A stretch of DNA of 64,000 nt, taken from Glycomyces artemisiae. GTDB lineage: Bacteria > Actinomycetota > Actinomycetes > Mycobacteriales > Micromonosporaceae. The stretch covers positions 248,001 through 312,000 of the forward strand of contig NZ_PVTJ01000008.1 in the NCBI RefSeq assembly GCF_003002955.1, written 5' to 3'. This document shows positions 56,068 through 64,000 of this stretch, one piece after another. Within the stretch, counting starts at the first letter, position 1; each line of letters starts with the position of its first letter. A program made the translations under genes and the position numbers. Under the pieces are notes generated by a model. The model saw only the letters and a program-made list of their open reading frames with translations. It was not told the DNA's origin and did not search any database.

Positions 56068-56218
56068 AAGCGCGGGCCGCCCGCCACGCCTACTGCGAGG
56101 TCCCTTGGTCACGGGGCGTCGGGACCTTCGACTCTGCCGTGCCGCGACCGGGGCCGCGAAGGATTGCAGGACAGGCGGGAGAGACGGAGCGTGTCCGCGA
56201 ATGAGGGAGCGACGAGTG

Positions 56219-56623
56219 ATGGCCGAAGTGACGGCGGCGGAGGCGATGGCGCTGCTGGCCGGGGTACCGGTCGGGAGGCTGGGCTTCCACCACCGGGGAC
56301 TCCCGGCGATCCGGCCGGTGAACCACCTGGTGGAGGACGGGCAGATCCTCATCCGCACGCATTTCGACTCGCGCCTGTCCGCCGCGGTCGCCGAACTGCT
56401 GCCGCAAGGCGTCGTGGTCGCCTATGAGGCCGACGACCTCGACTTCGAGGCCAGGGCCGGATGGAGCGTCGTCGCGGTCGGGACCGCGCAGCCGGTCACC
56501 GCCCCGGACCGCCTCGCGCACTTCGAGGGGCGGCCGGACACCTGGGTCGACCAGCCTATGAACAAGCTCATCGCCATCCAGCCCGAGATCGTCACCGGCT
56601 TCCGCATCGAACCCGCCCGGTAG
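56219..56623 (+). CDS. FMN-binding split-barrel (NimA-like) protein
   Basis: A 134-residue pyridoxamine-5'-phosphate-oxidase-like flavin-binding protein: VGRLGFHHRGLPAIRPVNHL, ILIRTHFDSRL, VVAYEADDLD and GWSVVAVGTAQPV are the usual strands. Related proteins include 5-nitroimidazole reductases and F420- or FMN-dependent reductases. The substrate is unknown. ATG 56219 follows GGGAG; a longer frame has no site. Monocistronic. Confidence 0.8.
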   Translation: MAEVTAAEAMALLAGVPVGRLGFHHRGLPAIRPVNHLVEDGQILIRTHFDSRLSAAVAELLPQGVVVAYEADDLDFEARAGWSVVAVGTAQPVTAPDRLAHFEGRPDTWVDQPMNKLIAIQPEIVTGFRIEPAR

Positions 56624-56687
56624 CGCCGCCCGTTCCGCCGCGTCACTGGTACTCGGCCTCGACTTCGTTCCTGCCGTTCCCGAGTTT

Positions 56688-56708
56688 GGGGTGGGGTGGG
56701 GGTTGGGG
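56688..56708 (+). repeat. G-quadruplex motif
   Basis: Four runs of four or five guanines with loops of 1, 1 and 2 bases on the + strand (GGGG T GGGG T GGGGG TT GGGG). It lies 65 bases after the stop of the split-barrel gene. Short loops predict a very stable parallel quadruplex. Confidence 0.75.
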
Positions 56709-57710
56709 TTCGTGCGGGCGGCGACGAGAGGGTGGACGGTGGGGCGGGGTGCGCGGGTTGCCTTGGGGCCGTGGGGGTCCGGGGAGGAACGTGAGGATGT
56801 TCCCCACCTGTGGGTGATGACAGTGGCACCTGGTGCGAGGGATGATTGGGGTACGCACAGGGACAGGGAAATCGTACAGGTGTCGGGCGGTGCAAGCAGA
56901 CTAAGCCAAGCCTCTGGCCGACCGGCAAACCAGATGATCTCCGAGGCAGCGCCCCCGCCGCGAGACGACGGGACCAGGCCGATCTCATCCCCGCAGTGCT
57001 ATCGGGACCCGCAGCAGTCAACCACCCCCCTTGGCGGGGGCATGGTGATCGGGCGGGGGACCCGGGGAAGGGATCACCTCGACCCCGGGCGGTGTCCGCT
57101 ACGAGGCACACGACCGGAACACCAAGCGACCGACGAGGCCGAACACACGCCGCACGCAGCGACCGCGCACACGGCAGGCGGTGCCGCACCCGGCCGGGCA
57201 TTCGAGGACCCGGCACCGCGACACCACCCCCACACGCGCAGACCCGCACCCCTGCGGCCACGGCCCACCACCGCACCACCCCGACACGGGCGCAAGCCTG
57301 CCCACAGGGACGCATCTCCCGACCTGGGGCACACACCTGCCCCGACGGGCGCACTTTCCCGACGGGCAGCCAACACGCCCACCGGGAGCACCAACCCCGC
57401 CAGGCATCGCGCATGCCCACGGGAGCGAACACCCACCGGGCACCCGCACGGCGGGACCGGGAACCGGGGGACGAGGCCCCGGACCCCAGAACTGATCCGA
57501 TCCCGAAACAGGGACCGAGACCGGAGCCGGGGGGAAGGGCAGGAGGACAGGAGGACAGGAGGGACAAGGGAGACCGCGGAAGCCGCATCGCCGAGGACCG
57601 GCACGGCACCGGCGCTGGCACTGAGGCCTGGCGCCCGCAGGCCGGCCGCAGACCAGGGACCGGATGCCAGGAAACCGACAAGGCCGCACCTGCGAAGGAG
57701 GTGACACACC

Positions 57711-57950
57711 ATGCACACCACGACCACGCCACACCCGCTGCCACTGCCGCACCCGCGCCCGCTATCGGCGCCGCGCCCCCGCGAGCAGGCCGGCACCACC
57801 GGGAGCCGACCCCGCCCCGCCCCGGCAACGCACGCCGAACCAATCCCACGCCTCTCCGTCGCCGCCCGCACTAGCCTCGATCCGAACGCCGCCCCAGCCC
57901 GGCGACGCACATCGAACCGCCTCCGCGCTCCGCCGTCGCCGCCCGCATGA
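57711..57950 (+). CDS. Orphan 79-codon frame behind a perfect ribosome-binding site
   Basis: ATG 57711 is preceded by AAGGAGGTGA (57695-57704), the full complement of the 16S rRNA 3' end, at 6-base spacing. The predicted peptide starts MHTTTTPHPLPLPHPRP and is Pro/Arg/Thr-rich throughout with no recognised domain. The frame lies partly in the tandem-repeat block. It may be a remnant of the 5' end of a lost gene, or a leader peptide; a stable protein is doubtful. Confidence 0.3.
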   Translation: MHTTTTPHPLPLPHPRPLSAPRPREQAGTTGSRPRPAPATHAEPIPRLSVAARTSLDPNAAPARRRTSNRLRAPPSPPA

Positions 57951-58125
57951 ACCCCAACCAGACATCGCCCCGCCACGGCCGCGCACACCAGGCCGGCTGC
58001 CACCACTCCGTCGTTGATCACCGAACTCCAACCCCATCGTCGCCCCAGCCCGGCGACACACGCCCGACCGAATCCCCCGCTTCTCCGTCGCCGACTGGTT
58101 GAACCCCGACCTGATCCCGGCCACA
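57823..58125. repeat. Degenerate ~75-base tandem repeats
   Basis: Four units starting near 57823, 57900, 57977 and 58051 (periods 77, 77, 74). Units 1, 2 and 4 share CGGCGACGCAC at the start, then CGAACC, a central TCTCCGTCGCCG and a tail with GAACCCC; unit 3 is more diverged. Identity between units 1, 2 and 4 looks to be around two thirds. No coding frame is preserved across them. Confidence 0.6.
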
Positions 58126-58249
58126 CGTCGGCAGTGGCCCGGGCCGCCACTCGCTGCTCCGCCGCTGAGTGACTGCATCCCCGAGCCGCCTCGCCCTGCC
58201 CTTCCCCGTCACCTCAACGTAAAGGGGCTGCTCTGCTCGAACATCGTGG

Positions 58250-58609
58250 TCAGGCAATCCAGACAGCGATGTCCGGGGCCAGCACTCCATCCGTCAAGGA
58301 TTCGCTCGCCAACAGCGGCGCCCCGTCGAACCCGAGGAGCCCCAACGGAATCGGCGCGTCACTGAAGTTGACCGCGCAGGCGAAGGCGCCCCCACGCCGG
58401 AACGCGAGCACACCGTCGGGTCCATCACGCAGGTCGAGGTCGGCCCCTTGAAGGTCCGGGCGGGTACGGCGGAGGGCGATGGCCCGCCGGTAGAGGTCGA
58501 GGGTCGAGCCGGGCCGCTCGATCTGGGCATCGACGCTCAGCGCGCCCCACGACGGCGACTGCGGCAGCCATGGGGCGCGGCCGTCCGGGGGCCCGAACCC
58601 GAAGTGCGG
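58250..58609 (-). pseudogene. C-terminal fragment of a GH13 alpha-glucosidase
   Basis: About 120 residues matching the end of actinobacterial oligo-1,6-/alpha-glucosidases: FGFGPPDGRAPWLPQ, then WGALSVDAQ, STLDLYRRAIALRRTRPDLQ and a C-terminal beta domain (GVLAFRRGGAFACAVNFSDA). All catalytic residues of the (beta/alpha)8 barrel would lie upstream and are missing. The frame before residue P51 (base 58609) has no similarity to the family, so the fragment begins at a breakpoint. It has its normal stop codon. Confidence 0.75.
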
Positions 58610-58790
58610 CCTGGGTCCGCCGCTCGTCGGCCTCCTGCTTGCGGCGCAGCTCGGCGTTGGCCTCGTCCCGGGAGGACTCGATCCGGTACACGCGCATCGC
58701 TGCGATGGCGGCGATGGCCGCGAACGCCAAGGCGCCCAGCGACGACAGCGCAGAGCCAATCCGGAATGCTCTTCCAGCCCGCGCTCCCAA
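58609..58790 (-). pseudogene. N-terminal fragment of a small membrane protein
   Basis: In a different frame from the GH13 fragment, a helix GSALSSLGALAFAAIAAIAA is followed by MRVYRIESSRDEANAELRRK and QEADERRTQA, a pattern known from small actinobacterial membrane proteins with one helix and a coiled coil. After the last Ala the sequence passes directly into the GH13 fragment, out of frame. The start is uncertain (TTG 58790, without ribosome site). Confidence 0.5.
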
Positions 58791-58913
58791 GACTACGAAC
58801 CCGCGTCGCGTTCCGGGGTCCGGCAGTGGAGTGCCGCAGTGGTGCAGGCGGTACCACGAAGGGGCCAGTGCACGGGATCGATCGAAGCCGTTCGGGCCCA
58901 TAGCGTTGCAGTG

Positions 58914-60056
58914 ATGACGACGATGATCTCCGCCGCGGCCCTGGCGCTCGGCCTCGCTTTCACTCCCGCCGTTCCCGTTCAGCGACAGCTCGACACCGAG
59001 GCGCTCGAAGCGGCGCTCGACGAGTTCATGAGCCTGGGCGACCAGTCGGCGGTCGTGGAGGTCCGCGACGGCGACGAGGTGTGGGCCGAAGCGGAGGGGC
59101 CGCGAAGTTTCAAGCCGTGGGCCGACGATGTGGAGGCCGGTGACCGCATCCGGATCGGCAGCGTCACGAAGTCGATGACGGCCGCTGTCTTGCTCCAGCT
59201 CGACGGGGAGGGCGCGATCGACCTCGACGATCCGCTCGACGCGTACCTGCCCGGCCTGCTCCCCTACGACGACCAGCCCACGGTCCGCGAGCTGATGGGG
59301 CACCAGGGCCGTGTCCCGGACTTCCTGCCGCACCTGTACGCGTCGGTGTTCGAGAACGGCGACATGACCGACTTCTACGCGAACTACCGCACCTACTACA
59401 GCCCCGAGGAACTCGTGGCGATCGGCGTCCAGGACCCGCGGCCGACCGGCTTCTCCTACTCCAACACCGGGTACACGGCCCTCGGGATGCTCGTCGAGGA
59501 GGTCACCGGCAACCCGCTCGGCGAGGAGCTGGCCGCGCGCGTCTTCGCGCCCGCCGGGCTGGCCGACACGTATTTCGCCGACCCGCACGGCTCGGGCATC
59601 CGCGGCCCGCACCCGGTCCCCTACCTGAGCACCGGCGACCCCACGCGTCCGTACGTTGACACGTCGAAGCTGTCGAGCAGCCAACTGTGGGCGGGCGGCG
59701 GCGTCGTCTCGACCATGGGCGACCTCAACGACTTCTACGACGCGCTGGTCGACGGGACGCTCCTCACCCCGGCGCAGCTCGCCGAGGCCACCGACTTCCA
59801 GGAGACGGGCAAGAGCTTCGACTACGGCCTGGGCCTGTTCAGGATCACCCTCGAATGCGACGGCGGCCCTGAAGTGTTCTTCGGCCACGACGGCGACAGC
59901 CTCGGCCACGAGACCCAGTCCTTCCACTCCCTCGACGGCGACCGCCAGATCTCCATGGCCTGGAACGCCATCGACCGCCACGGCTACCACGACGGAGACG
60001 CCCTCGAAGCCGCCGCGGACGAGCTGATCCGCACCGCCCTCTGCCCCGACGCGTAA
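58914..60056 (+). CDS. Secreted class C beta-lactamase-like serine hydrolase
   Basis: A 380-residue protein with a signal peptide (MTTMISAAALALGLAFTPAV) and a complete serine-hydrolase motif set: SVTK (S83, K86), YSN (182-184) and FGHDG near the C-terminus. Family members are D-Ala-D-Ala carboxypeptidases, esterases or lactamases; the ending lacks membrane helices, so it is exported. Start ATG 58914 has only weak upstream pairing. The whole gene is antisense to the extended frame of the LuxR-type gene. Not closely similar to the hydrolase at 53.9 kb. Confidence 0.88.
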   Translation: MTTMISAAALALGLAFTPAVPVQRQLDTEALEAALDEFMSLGDQSAVVEVRDGDEVWAEAEGPRSFKPWADDVEAGDRIRIGSVTKSMTAAVLLQLDGEGAIDLDDPLDAYLPGLLPYDDQPTVRELMGHQGRVPDFLPHLYASVFENGDMTDFYANYRTYYSPEELVAIGVQDPRPTGFSYSNTGYTALGMLVEEVTGNPLGEELAARVFAPAGLADTYFADPHGSGIRGPHPVPYLSTGDPTRPYVDTSKLSSSQLWAGGGVVSTMGDLNDFYDALVDGTLLTPAQLAEATDFQETGKSFDYGLGLFRITLECDGGPEVFFGHDGDSLGHETQSFHSLDGDRQISMAWNAIDRHGYHDGDALEAAADELIRTALCPDA

Positions 60057-62705
60057 GGCGCGCTTGAGATGCCGGGCGACGAGCTCGGTGCGGCTCGCCG
60101 TGCCGGTCTTCGCGAGCAGGCGGGACATGTGGACCTCGACGGTGCGCTGGGAGATGCCGAGGGCCGCCGCGATCTGGCGGTTCGAGTCGCCGCGCGCGGC
60201 GGCGGCGAGGACCTGGGTCTCGCGCGCCGTCAGCACTGGTTCGTCCTCTAGGGACGACAGGAGGGCTTCGGCGGCGTCGCGCGCGTGGCCGGGCCAGCGT
60301 TCCAGGAGGGCGACGGCTTTGCGCGCGTGGGCGATCGCGGTGTCGCGGTCGCGGCTGGCCGCGGCGGCGAGGCGATGGGCGATGCTCGCCCACGCGGGCA
60401 GGGGGTTCGCGGCCGCGGCGTCGGCGAGCGCGAGGACGCCGTCCCGGTCGCCCGAAGCGGCGCGGGCGGTCATCCAGAACAGGGCCGCGTCCGGGTTCGC
60501 GGCCGGGCCGGGGACCGCTCCGAGGCAGTCGGTCAGGAACCGCTGCGCCGCTTCGAATCCGATCGCGGGAAGCGCGAGTCGGGCGGCCTCGATGACGCGG
60601 GTCTCGCGGCGGCGGTGCAGCTCCGGCGGGACCGCGTCGCGGTAGGCGCGCAAGGCCGCCTCGATCTCGGGGCGGCGGCCGCGGTGCGCGGCTAGAGCCA
60701 GCGCCAGCCAGTGCGGGTAGGTGACGACCCAGCCCTGGTCCATGCCCGCGACGAGGTCGAGCCCTTCGCGGCAGAGGCGTTCGGCCGCTTCGAGGTCGCC
60801 GCGTTCGACGGCGAGGAGCCCGGCCTTCGCCGCGAGGACGGCGCGCTCGTGCGGGTCGGACTCCTCGCGGGCGCGGGCGCTGAGGAGGTCCCAGGCGCGG
60901 CCGAGATCGCCGAAGCCCATCGCCGCGTCGGCGCCGACGCGCGTGATCTTCCCGCCCCAGGAGGCCATGCCGAGGTCCCCGACGGCGGCCACGGCGCGGT
61001 CGTACAGCCGCCATGCCTGGGCCTCGGGCAGGTCCGCGAGGTGCACGGCGAGCAGGTTGTTGACGGCGCGGCTGAGCTTGCGCAGGTCTCCCGCGGCCTC
61101 GGCCTCGCGCCACACATCGGTGAGGAGGCGGACGGCGGCTTCGGTGTCGCCCAGGTAGTACAGGGCGGTGGCGCGGCTGATGGCGGCCGAGCGGCGCTGC
61201 ACGTCGAGGCCGTGCTCGGCGAAGAGCGGTTCGGCGGCGTCGCAGAGCGCGGGGATCGGCTCGTACTGCTCGGAGCGGACGTACGCCATGGCGCGGCCGG
61301 TGGCGCAGCGGGCCTGCTCGACGCTCCCGGGGGCCGCGAGCGCCTCGGCCGCTTCGAGGCTGCGCCACTGGTCCTGGACGCGTCCTTGGTGCCAGTCCAC
61401 TTCGGCGAGGTGGAGGTGCGCGATGCAGCGCGCAGCGTCGTCGCCAGCGGCGGCGATCCGGGCGAAGTGGACGCGGGCGCCTTCGTAGTCGCCCGCGAGG
61501 AGGGCCGCCCGGGCGGCGGTGGCGCGCAGTCCCTCGTGGTCGGGGGCGAGGGCGAGGGCGTCTTCGGCGGTGCGCTGCGCGGACTCGGTGTGCCAGTCGG
61601 CGAGCTGCCTTGCGGCGGTGCGGTCGGCGGCGGCGACGGCGAGGTCCGTGTCGCCGACGGCGTGTGCGTGGACGGCCACCGCGGGATCGTCGCCGCGGGC
61701 GAGTGCGGCGTCGAGCGCGGCCTGGTGGACTGCGGCGGTCTCGGCGGGGAGCGCCGTGGCGGCGAAGGCCTCGCGCATGAGGGCGTGGGGGAAGCGCAGT
61801 GCGTCGCCGTCGCGCAGGAGGACGCCCGCGGCGGTGAGCCGCGGGAGGGCGCGGTCGAGGAGGTCGGTGCCGAGGACGGCGGCGACGTCGGTGCCGATGC
61901 GTTCGCCGAGGAGGGCGAGGCCGCGGGCGAGCCGCCAGGCGTCCTCGTCGGCTCCGGCGAGGCGGGCGCGCACGAGGGAGGCGAGGTGTCCTGGGAGCGG
62001 CGCGGCGGGGGCTCCGGCGGCGGCGAGTTCTTTGACCCAGAACGGGTTCCCGCCGGTGCGGCGGTGGACGGCGCGGGCGTGCCGCGCGTTGCGGCCGAGG
62101 AGGGCGCCGGTCTCGGCGACCGTGAAGGGCCGCAGCGCGATCGTGTCCGCGGTGCGGGCGGCGTCGAGGCGGGCGAGGGTGCGGGCGGCCGCTGCGGGGT
62201 GGCGGGCCTCCTCGGGCGGGCGGGACGCGGCGACGAGGAGGACGGGGAGGTCCCAGGCGGCGGCGAGTTCGGCCCACAGGGCGAGGCTCTCGGGGTCGAG
62301 CCAGTGGAGGTCGTCGGCGGCCAGGAGCGCGGGGCCGTCGCCGACGAGGCGGCGGAGGGTGCGCACGGCGCCGCGCAGGAGCGCGCCGTCGGGGAGCGGC
62401 GCGGGAGCCTCGGCGGGTTCCTGGCGCAGGGCCCGCCACAGGCGGGGGTCGGTGCCGCCGGGGGGTTCGGTCTCGGCGGTGGCGGCGGCGAACCAGTCGT
62501 GGGGTGCGGCGGCGTCGGCGCGGGCGGTGCCGACGAGGAGGAGCGGCGGGGCGAGGGCGGCGGCGGCTTCGCGCAGGAGCCGGGTCTTGCCGATGCCCGC
62601 TTCGCCGATGAGGGTGACGGCGGCGGGGCCGTCGCCTGCGGTGACCGAGTCCCAGGCCGCGGCGATGCGCGCGAACTCGGCGTCGCGGGCGATGAGCGGG
62701 GACAT
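60057..62705 (-). CDS. Large ATP-binding LuxR-type regulator (LAL), no stop in frame
   Basis: ATG 62705 begins a LAL-type regulator: Walker A GEAGIGKTRLL (34-44), Walker B PALLAADDLHWLD, an NB-ARC-like/AAA region to about 330, TPR-like helices in the middle, and a C-terminal LuxR helix-turn-helix LTARETQVLAAAARGDSNRQ followed by IAAALGISQRTVEVHMSRLL. The recognisable protein ends near base 60057 (883 codons), as is usual a few residues after the HTH. However the frame has no stop there; it stays open to 58425 (1426 residues) and runs antisense through the whole hydrolase gene. The given end is therefore the end of the conserved part, not a seen stop. Divergent from an ABC exporter gene 78 bases away. 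Confidence 0.75.
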
Positions 62706-62732
62706 GGGGCCAAGGCTAGCGGGGCGGGCGCG

Positions 62733-62748
62733 TACGTGGAAACACGTA
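62733..62748. promoter_or_regulatory. Dyad in the LAL/ABC divergent gap
   Basis: TACGTG-GAAA-CACGTA, a perfect 6-bp inverted repeat with 4-base spacer in the 78-base gap. A LuxR-type protein commonly binds such dyads; autoregulation and control of the exporter are plausible. Confidence 0.45.
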
Positions 62749-62783
62749 TTGCACCGGCCCGGTGCGGCGGCGACGCTGTTGCC

Positions 62784-63755
62784 ATGAGCATCACTGGAAT
62801 CGAGGCCCCGGCGGTCGAGGTGCGGGGCCTGGTCCGCGACTTCGCCGTGAAGGGCGGCCCGCCGCGGCGGGCCCTGGACGACTTCGATCTGGCCGTCGCG
62901 CCCGGGGAGGTCCACGGGCTGCTGGGCCCGAACGGGGCGGGCAAGACGACGCTGTGCAAGATCCTCTCCACGGTGCTCCTGCCGACGGCGGGGACGGCGC
63001 GGGTGCAGGGCCTCGACGTGGTCGCCGACGCCAAGCGGGTGCGTCCGCTCCTGGGGATCGTGTTCGGCGGCGAGCGGGGCCTGTACGCGCGGATGACGGC
63101 GGCGCAGAACCTGCGGTTCTGGGCGGCGCTGTACGGGCACGGCCGCCGCGAGGGGCGGCGACGCGCAGCGGAGCTGCTGGAGCGGGTGGGCCTGGGTCCG
63201 CGCGCCGACGAGGCGGTCGAGACGTTCTCGCGGGGCATGAAGCAGCGGCTGCACCTGGCGCGGGGGCTCGTCGGGGACCCGCGGGTGCTGCTGCTGGACG
63301 AGCCGACGGTGGGCATGGACCCGGTGTCGGCGCACGAGTTCCGGGACCTGGTGGAGGACCTGCGGGCCGAGGGCCGCGCGGTGCTGTTGACCACGCACGA
63401 CATGGCCGAGGCCGAGGCGCTGTGCGACCGGGTGTCGTTCATCGACGGCGGGCGGCTGCTGCGGTGCGAGGACCCGCGGGTCCTCGGGGAGCTCCTTTCT
63501 CGGCACGAGCGGGTCCGCGCCTCGGGCGTCCCCGAGGCGCTGGCGGCGCGGCTCGCGGCGCTGCCGGGGGTGGAGCGGGTGCGGGCGACCGGGCCGGGCG
63601 CGGTCCTGGTCGAAACCGACCGCGGCGGGGCGGCGCTGCCGGTGCTGCGCACGCTCGTGGAGGCGGGCGTGACCGACGTGTCGACCGCGCCGCCGAGCCT
63701 CGAAGAGGTGTACCTGCACCTCATCGGGGACCGCGGGATGGCGGTGCGGCCGTGA
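62784..63755 (+). CDS. ABC exporter ATP-binding protein
   Basis: A 323-residue ATPase of the DrrA/NatA type: Walker A GPNGAGKTTLCKIL, signature TFSRGMKQRLHLARGL (FSRG replaces LSGGQ, as is common in this class), Walker B LLLDEPTVGMDPVSAHEF and a C-terminal extension of about 85 residues. The following gene encodes the permease (4-base overlap GTGA). Such pairs export drugs, lipids or natural products, or Na+; the substrate is unknown. The divergent LAL regulator is the likely controller. Confidence 0.88.
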   Translation: MSITGIEAPAVEVRGLVRDFAVKGGPPRRALDDFDLAVAPGEVHGLLGPNGAGKTTLCKILSTVLLPTAGTARVQGLDVVADAKRVRPLLGIVFGGERGLYARMTAAQNLRFWAALYGHGRREGRRRAAELLERVGLGPRADEAVETFSRGMKQRLHLARGLVGDPRVLLLDEPTVGMDPVSAHEFRDLVEDLRAEGRAVLLTTHDMAEAEALCDRVSFIDGGRLLRCEDPRVLGELLSRHERVRASGVPEALAARLAALPGVERVRATGPGAVLVETDRGGAALPVLRTLVEAGVTDVSTAPPSLEEVYLHLIGDRGMAVRP

Positions 63756-64000
63756 GGGGCTCCTCCCCCGCGTTCTGGGCGGCGGCCCGGTTCCAGCTCG
63801 GCGAGTTCCGGCGCGACCCCGGGACGCTCCTGATGCTTGTCACCGCGCCGTTCTTCGCGGTGATCCTGCTGTCGGTCACCGAGCACGGCGGCCGGGCCGA
63901 CCTCGCGCCGTACGCGATCCTCGCGCCCGCCGTGATGGCCTCGATCGGCATGGCGGTCATGGAGGCGGGCGAGACGATCTTCCGCGACCGCACCGCCGGG
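63752..64000 (+). CDS. ABC-2 type permease, 3' end outside window
   Basis: The first 83 residues of an ABC-2 membrane permease: a short cytoplasmic tail (FWAAARFQLGEFRRDPGTLL), first helix LMLVTAPFFAVILLSV, then a second hydrophobic segment APAVMASIGMAVMEAGETIF, a pattern of ABC-2 exporters. GTG 63752 overlaps the ATPase stop by 4 bases. The gene continues past the window. Confidence 0.8.
   Translation, partial: MRGSSPAFWAAARFQLGEFRRDPGTLLMLVTAPFFAVILLSVTEHGGRADLAPYAILAPAVMASIGMAVMEAGETIFRDRTAG

Follow-up and report, generated by a model that had tools for sequence, protein, structure and literature searches.

In a stretch of 64,000 nucleotides from Glycomyces artemisiae (RefSeq assembly GCF_003002955.1, contig NZ_PVTJ01000008.1, forward-strand positions 248,001 to 312,000; hereafter the window, with coordinates counted from its first letter), a gene for a LuxR-type regulator on the minus strand lacks a stop codon at the point where its orthologues end, and its frame continues antisense through the whole of a convergent gene for a serine hydrolase. 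We consider this to be probably a real and lineage-specific loss of a stop between two convergent genes, in which a deletion took the stop together with the spacer, the tail beyond it being read by default.

From the ATG at 62,705 the minus-strand frame is free of stops down to 58,425, which amounts to 1426 codons plus stop. There is no stop near 60,057. The initial annotation had claimed that the frame stays open for another 1.6 kb beyond that point and that it runs antisense through the entire hydrolase gene; reading of the minus frame bore out both statements, and the two frames are in exact codon register over 58914-60056 of the plus strand. We placed the 3' boundary of the regulator itself at 60057, at the last residue common to its orthologues (...LVARHLKRA), which gives it 883 amino acids. 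Pfam assigns AAA_16 to its N-terminus (PF13191, residues 4-156, E 7.5e-16), where GEAGIGKT is visible in the alignment, and a LuxR helix-turn-helix (HTH) to its C-terminus (PF00196, residues 824-876, E 1.5e-17). With an N-terminal AAA ATPase, a long middle region and a C-terminal LuxR HTH, the protein is like the class known as LAL or MalT-type LuxR regulators, from which the window copy differs in having no stop codon. As a MalT equivalog in NCBIfam (NF003420) it missed the cut-off, with 23.2 bits against 537, and the match was confined to the HTH.

To place the end of the gene we compared seven orthologues found among 61 genomes, one genome per species and the window's own included. Six were full-length and 46-79% identical to the regulator, namely those of Glycomyces albidus NEAU-7082 (G006, 79% identical), G. 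terrestris YIM 121974 (G008), G. sambucus (G013), Glycomyces sp. TRM65418 (G018), a further Glycomyces (G020) and a member of the same family (G034); the seventh, in G019, is a partial copy at a contig end with 56 residues at 82% identity. This comparison of homologous C-termini, which the initial annotation had proposed, found TGA in all seven, 0-10 residues past the last residue aligned to the 883 codons of the window. The ends read ...LVARYLQDA-TGA in G. albidus and G. terrestris and ...LVARYLQNA-TGA in G019; at the equivalent site the window reads ...LVARHLKRA-TTA-CGC-GTC, after which the frame continues. Because all seven orthologues end in TGA there, the missing stop is real relative to the family and not a misread gene end, and the regulator is longer at its 3' end than every one of them, as in overlaps that arise by stop loss. 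Judged from these ends, the absence of the regulator's own stop is not a chance effect. The initial annotation had offered three options, of which the lost stop is supported by the orthologue ends and by an 84-bp spacer that the window lacks. A frameshift near the HTH is rejected, as the regulator aligns without a change of frame to its last residues, and a useful translated tail is not supported either.

The nearest intact pair is that of G. albidus, in which the regulator converges with a hydrolase 72% identical to the window's over the best segment. There the two genes end TGA to TGA, 84 bp apart, their frames already share the codon register, and the spacer is able to form a 12-bp GC (guanine plus cytosine) stem closed by a 4-base loop. 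This spacer is missing (0 bp) from the window: the last Ala codon of the regulator abuts TTA, the complement of the hydrolase's TAA, and TTACGCG is read where G. albidus and G. terrestris have TGACGCG. In this register the three stop codons read TTA, CTA and TCA on the opposite strand, none of which is a stop. Since no triplet can stop both strands in register, one of the two genes had to lose its stop, and it was the regulator that did.

How far the frame then stays open is a matter of codon usage. We examined 30 Glycomyces hydrolase loci, the window's own included, out of 57 matches listed, and counted 9 in-register antisense stops in 10,990 codons. The in-register antisense frame was fully open in 22 of the 30 loci, and either other antisense frame in none (0/30). 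By our hand calculation the rate of stops predicts that about 73% of hydrolase-length stretches are open, to be set against the 22 of 30 observed; in a motif-filtered subset (21 of the 30 loci) 16 were open in register. The register is open because these hydrolases make almost no use of TTA, CTA and TCA codons. Codon usage accounts for how long the opening is, and the 1.6 kb of open tail is by its length no evidence of function. The 64-kb window contains 36 stop-to-stop frames of at least 543 codons, only 6 of which carry the codon-position GC signature that we used as the mark of a gene. The hydrolase itself is of normal length, as is the neighbour in stop-loss overlaps: it ends 3 residues past a conserved Cys, and 23 of the 30 loci (window included) end 1 to about 28 residues past it, the remaining 7 having missed the motif filter. 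The regulator frame is open upstream as well (stop to stop 58428-63839, 1804 codons), where it lies antisense to, and in register with, a divergent ABC-ATPase gene. Along 62706-63839 of the minus strand a gene finder might pick a start that is far too early.

Beyond the hydrolase the tail passes into the relics of two other genes (Table 1). The initial annotation had noticed a membrane-protein fragment in frame with the tail, and this was confirmed: 51 amino acids, corresponding to query residues 55-105, from which we derived the coordinates by hand, match a frame in another genome, G011. The other relic, presumably from a GH13-type alpha-glucosidase (Pfam gives DUF3459), shares 53% identity with the C-terminus of a frame of 543 codons in that genome. 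In G011 (L086 3749-6941) each matching piece lies in one of two neighbouring frames, of 554 and 543 codons, which keep the order seen in the window, and about 2.67 kb separates the matching points; neither regulator nor hydrolase is present in that stretch, which shows the two neighbours intact and not the whole locus. In the window the two relics meet near 58,600-58,620, 1.4 kb beyond the junction, and their meeting point is a second deletion scar, where about 2.7 kb is missing in comparison with G011. This second deletion explains the fragment in frame with the tail, which is a relic beside the scar. A second scar so near argues for real erosion of the locus. Between these relics and a frame at 56105-56623, both strands of 56422-58150 hold several long overlapping frames with Pro/Thr/Arg-rich translations and a strong swing in AT skew (0.65 at 57,250-57,749), with no clear gene.

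We infer the following order of events. The ancestor would have been arranged as in G. albidus, with a regulator ending in TGA, a hydrolase with its own stop and a short GC-hairpin spacer between them. A deletion in this lineage would have taken the regulator's stop and the whole spacer, and would have joined its last Ala codon in register to the hydrolase stop triplet, possibly via the shared T-ACGCG motif. Deletion is the simplest cause of the stop loss: a single deletion with one end in the regulator stop and the other at the hydrolase stop would explain the sequence in one step, and a deletion followed by a change of TGA to TTA would explain it likewise. From then on only the hydrolase could terminate at the shared triplet, and the regulator would read on through antisense codons by default as far as the TGA at 58,425, which falls within a relic that is here read in a frame other than its own. 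The product would be a chain of 1426 amino acids, or else the transcript would end before a stop codon is reached; the tail is presumably functionless and probably degraded.

The main rival to stop loss is an artefact of sequencing or assembly: the true genome would have two stops, and either its GC-rich hairpin spacer was lost or collapsed or some bases were called wrongly. No error confined to the junction triplet could provide each gene with a stop, because any in-register regulator stop there removes that of the hydrolase. Unlike such an error, a dropped spacer could, and the strong GC hairpin possible in the G. albidus spacer would probably be a hard template. Group iii of PMC2478687 comprises 3'-end extensions of one gene relative to its orthologues, and of 178 convergent overlaps over 60 bp that paper assigns 124 to this group as misannotations, while 54 might be true. 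However, the hydrolase has an end of normal length, the second deletion nearby points to real erosion, and the assembly has a completeness rating of 100 and a contamination of 0.14, figures that say nothing on single bases. On balance an artefact seems unlikely. A chimeric contig is unsupported, as the ABC-transporter gene adjoins the regulator in 6 of 6 loci, the hydrolase is convergent in G. albidus and a remnant of it is present in G. terrestris. The 401 bases around the junction gave 1 full-length match in the window's own genome, which is the site itself, and 7 short partial matches.

Some points weigh against a real loss of the stop by deletion. The junction sequence rests on one strain of the species, and one intact comparator cannot separate a single deletion from a deletion plus a substitution. 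A terminator scan, described below, was empty both in the window and in the G. albidus spacer, and gives no support to loss of a terminator. Moreover, the regulator bears no other sign of decay, either as internal stops or in its position ratio, which would also suit an artefact. It has no internal stops, and neither have the six full-length orthologues. Its branch measures 0.25, against 0.085, 0.10 and 0.16 in the three nearest relatives. The ratio of changes at codon positions 1 and 2 to those at position 3 on this branch, worked out by hand from pair counts, is 156 to 157.5 (about 0.99), which falls between those of G. albidus (78 to 87.5, 0.89) and G. terrestris (108 to 93.5, 1.16). Relaxed selection on the regulator is therefore not clearly seen, which would fit either a very recent loss or an error in the sequence.

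The scan for intrinsic terminators of the T-tract type found none in 58000-60500 of the window (0.6 expected), and likewise no site in the spacer of G. albidus. That the fusion cost the pair an intrinsic terminator is not supported; altered transcription termination at the junction is possible. The pair could be read as excludon-like, the tail protein being irrelevant and the regulator mRNA, which would run antisense over the hydrolase, repressing it. Convergent genes with neither a spacer nor a terminator-like site have a geometry that appears in a list given in PMC7154746. Against this, the scan gave no terminator for the G. albidus spacer either, and hence no sign of a change in transcription upon fusion; the overlap could be restricted by Rho-dependent or collision-based termination, and the arrangement is found in one species only. 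We regard such repression as improbable. The same slight chance may be given to a single-step regulatory lock, in which the regulator transcript, perhaps with the 1426-amino-acid product, would cross the hydrolase gene and silence it, and antisense codons would be giving rise to a new C-terminal domain that carries a membrane segment.

Turning to the tail as a protein, the whole 543 amino acids matched no Pfam family at E≤0.1 and no NCBIfam family at E≤0.01. Its last 163 amino acids alone gave OsmC (E 0.044) and UCMA (E 0.059) in Pfam, far under the curated cut-offs, which we took as chance, and its tblastn matches in relatives lay on the complement of their hydrolase genes; the tail as a protein domain is rejected on these grounds. 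Over the hydrolase part its codon-position GC is 0.93/0.45/0.70, the mirror of 0.70/0.46/0.94 in the hydrolase (0.83/0.57/0.94 in the regulator), and this signature belongs to the hydrolase strand. Compared with G. albidus, 183 of 375 aligned hydrolase codons differ; 74 of these differences are silent for the hydrolase and 17 for the tail, in which the other 166 alter a residue. Most of these changes must predate the fusion; they show which strand has been under protein constraint and are no test of recent selection on the tail. Nor is the overlap conserved, for G. albidus has a spacer, the hydrolase of G. terrestris is a remnant, and TGA is kept in all seven orthologues. Synthesis of the 1426-amino-acid chain, with a role gained by its tail as a C-terminal domain encoded antisense, is the least probable explanation of all: its frame is open, the junction is in frame and the membrane relic contributes a hydrophobic segment to the tail, but no family lies above cut-off, the GC values mirror the hydrolase, most hydrolase differences, mainly older than the fusion, change the tail, and the fusion occurs in 0/7 orthologues.

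In other relatives the surroundings of the regulator vary. The outcome is reversed in G. terrestris (L003 813-1688), where the regulator keeps its TGA and the hydrolase is reduced to a remnant of its C-terminus (query residues 259-377) without a stop of its own, the frame of which enters the regulator antisense by 176 nt; the same junction is unsettled in that species as well. No hydrolase was found in the 18 kb examined in G. sambucus, and no hydrolase match in the short flanks around those of G020, G034 and G019. In Glycomyces sp. TRM65418 there is a hydrolase about 3 kb past the regulator, but it points the same way as the regulator and is not convergent with it. The ABC-transporter gene next to the regulator is 86-93% identical in G. 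albidus, G. terrestris, G. sambucus and Glycomyces sp. TRM65418 and 71% identical in G034, and in G020 a piece of it, cut at the contig end, adjoins the regulator. With the regulator at 75-79% identity in the first three of these species, against 92-93% for the ABC neighbour, a fast regulator stands beside a slow transporter gene.

Table 1. Positions of the genes, relics and junction at the regulator/hydrolase locus of the window.
Feature	Position	Strand	Support or remark
Regulator, AAA_16 plus LuxR-HTH (GerE), 883 codons	60057..62705	-	Pfam and orthologues
Junction triplet, TAA on the plus strand (hydrolase stop), TTA (Leu) on the minus strand	60054..60056	.	nearest orthologues: regulator TGA here
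Read-through tail (543 sense codons and a stop), running antisense through the hydrolase and on into relics	58425..60056	-	no domain found
Beta-lactamase-family serine hydrolase, intact, normal C-terminus (...ALCPDA, stop)	58914..60056	+	PF00144 E 1.5e-42
N-terminal relic (51 aa, amino acids) of a membrane/coiled-coil gene, in tail frame	58602..58754	-	65% identity to G011 C15:169748-169900
C-terminal relic (about 120 aa), presumably GH13-type alpha-glucosidase	58250..58618	-	PF11941 DUF3459 E 1.4e-11; frame differs from tail
Divergent ABC-transporter ATPase gene	62784..63755	+	PF00005 E 1.2e-29

The locus shows cleanly how an overlap between convergent genes comes about, in that one event removes the spacer and exactly one gene keeps its stop. 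It also illustrates how little a very long open frame says about coding in a high-GC genome, and draws attention to a gene whose length an annotation pipeline may overstate. Long antisense frames without stops are reportedly caused by codon bias, as Merino in 1994 and Silke in 1997 are said to have described. The frame in the window shares with these a stop-free register that comes from rare TTA, CTA and TCA codons, and differs from them in being attached to a real upstream gene. That frame lengths depend on GC content and codon usage is stated in a passage of PMC3454372, which cites both of these authors on antisense frames.

Stop loss with overlap of convergent genes is a known kind of event. 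A section of PMC2174442 has gene overlaps arise by point mutation or deletion of a stop, followed by read-through, and C-terminal extension by stop loss in Saccharomyces is a subject of PMC4494051. With this origin by stop-codon mutation, and with group iii as outlined in PMC2478687, the window shares the lost stop, the neighbour of normal length and the convergent phase (123:321). Its overlap is far longer, as it extends over 1.6 kb through and past the whole neighbour, a length owed to the near absence of antisense stops in register; for the co-directional extension groups of PMC2478687, mean overlaps of 104-121 bp are quoted. One of the excludon geometries named in a part of PMC7154746 is that of convergent genes lacking a terminator, and the window resembles it in gene arrangement, with a convergent pair and no recognisable terminator between. 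The only unusual features of the present case are the length of the overlap and a stop triplet that can serve either one gene or the other.

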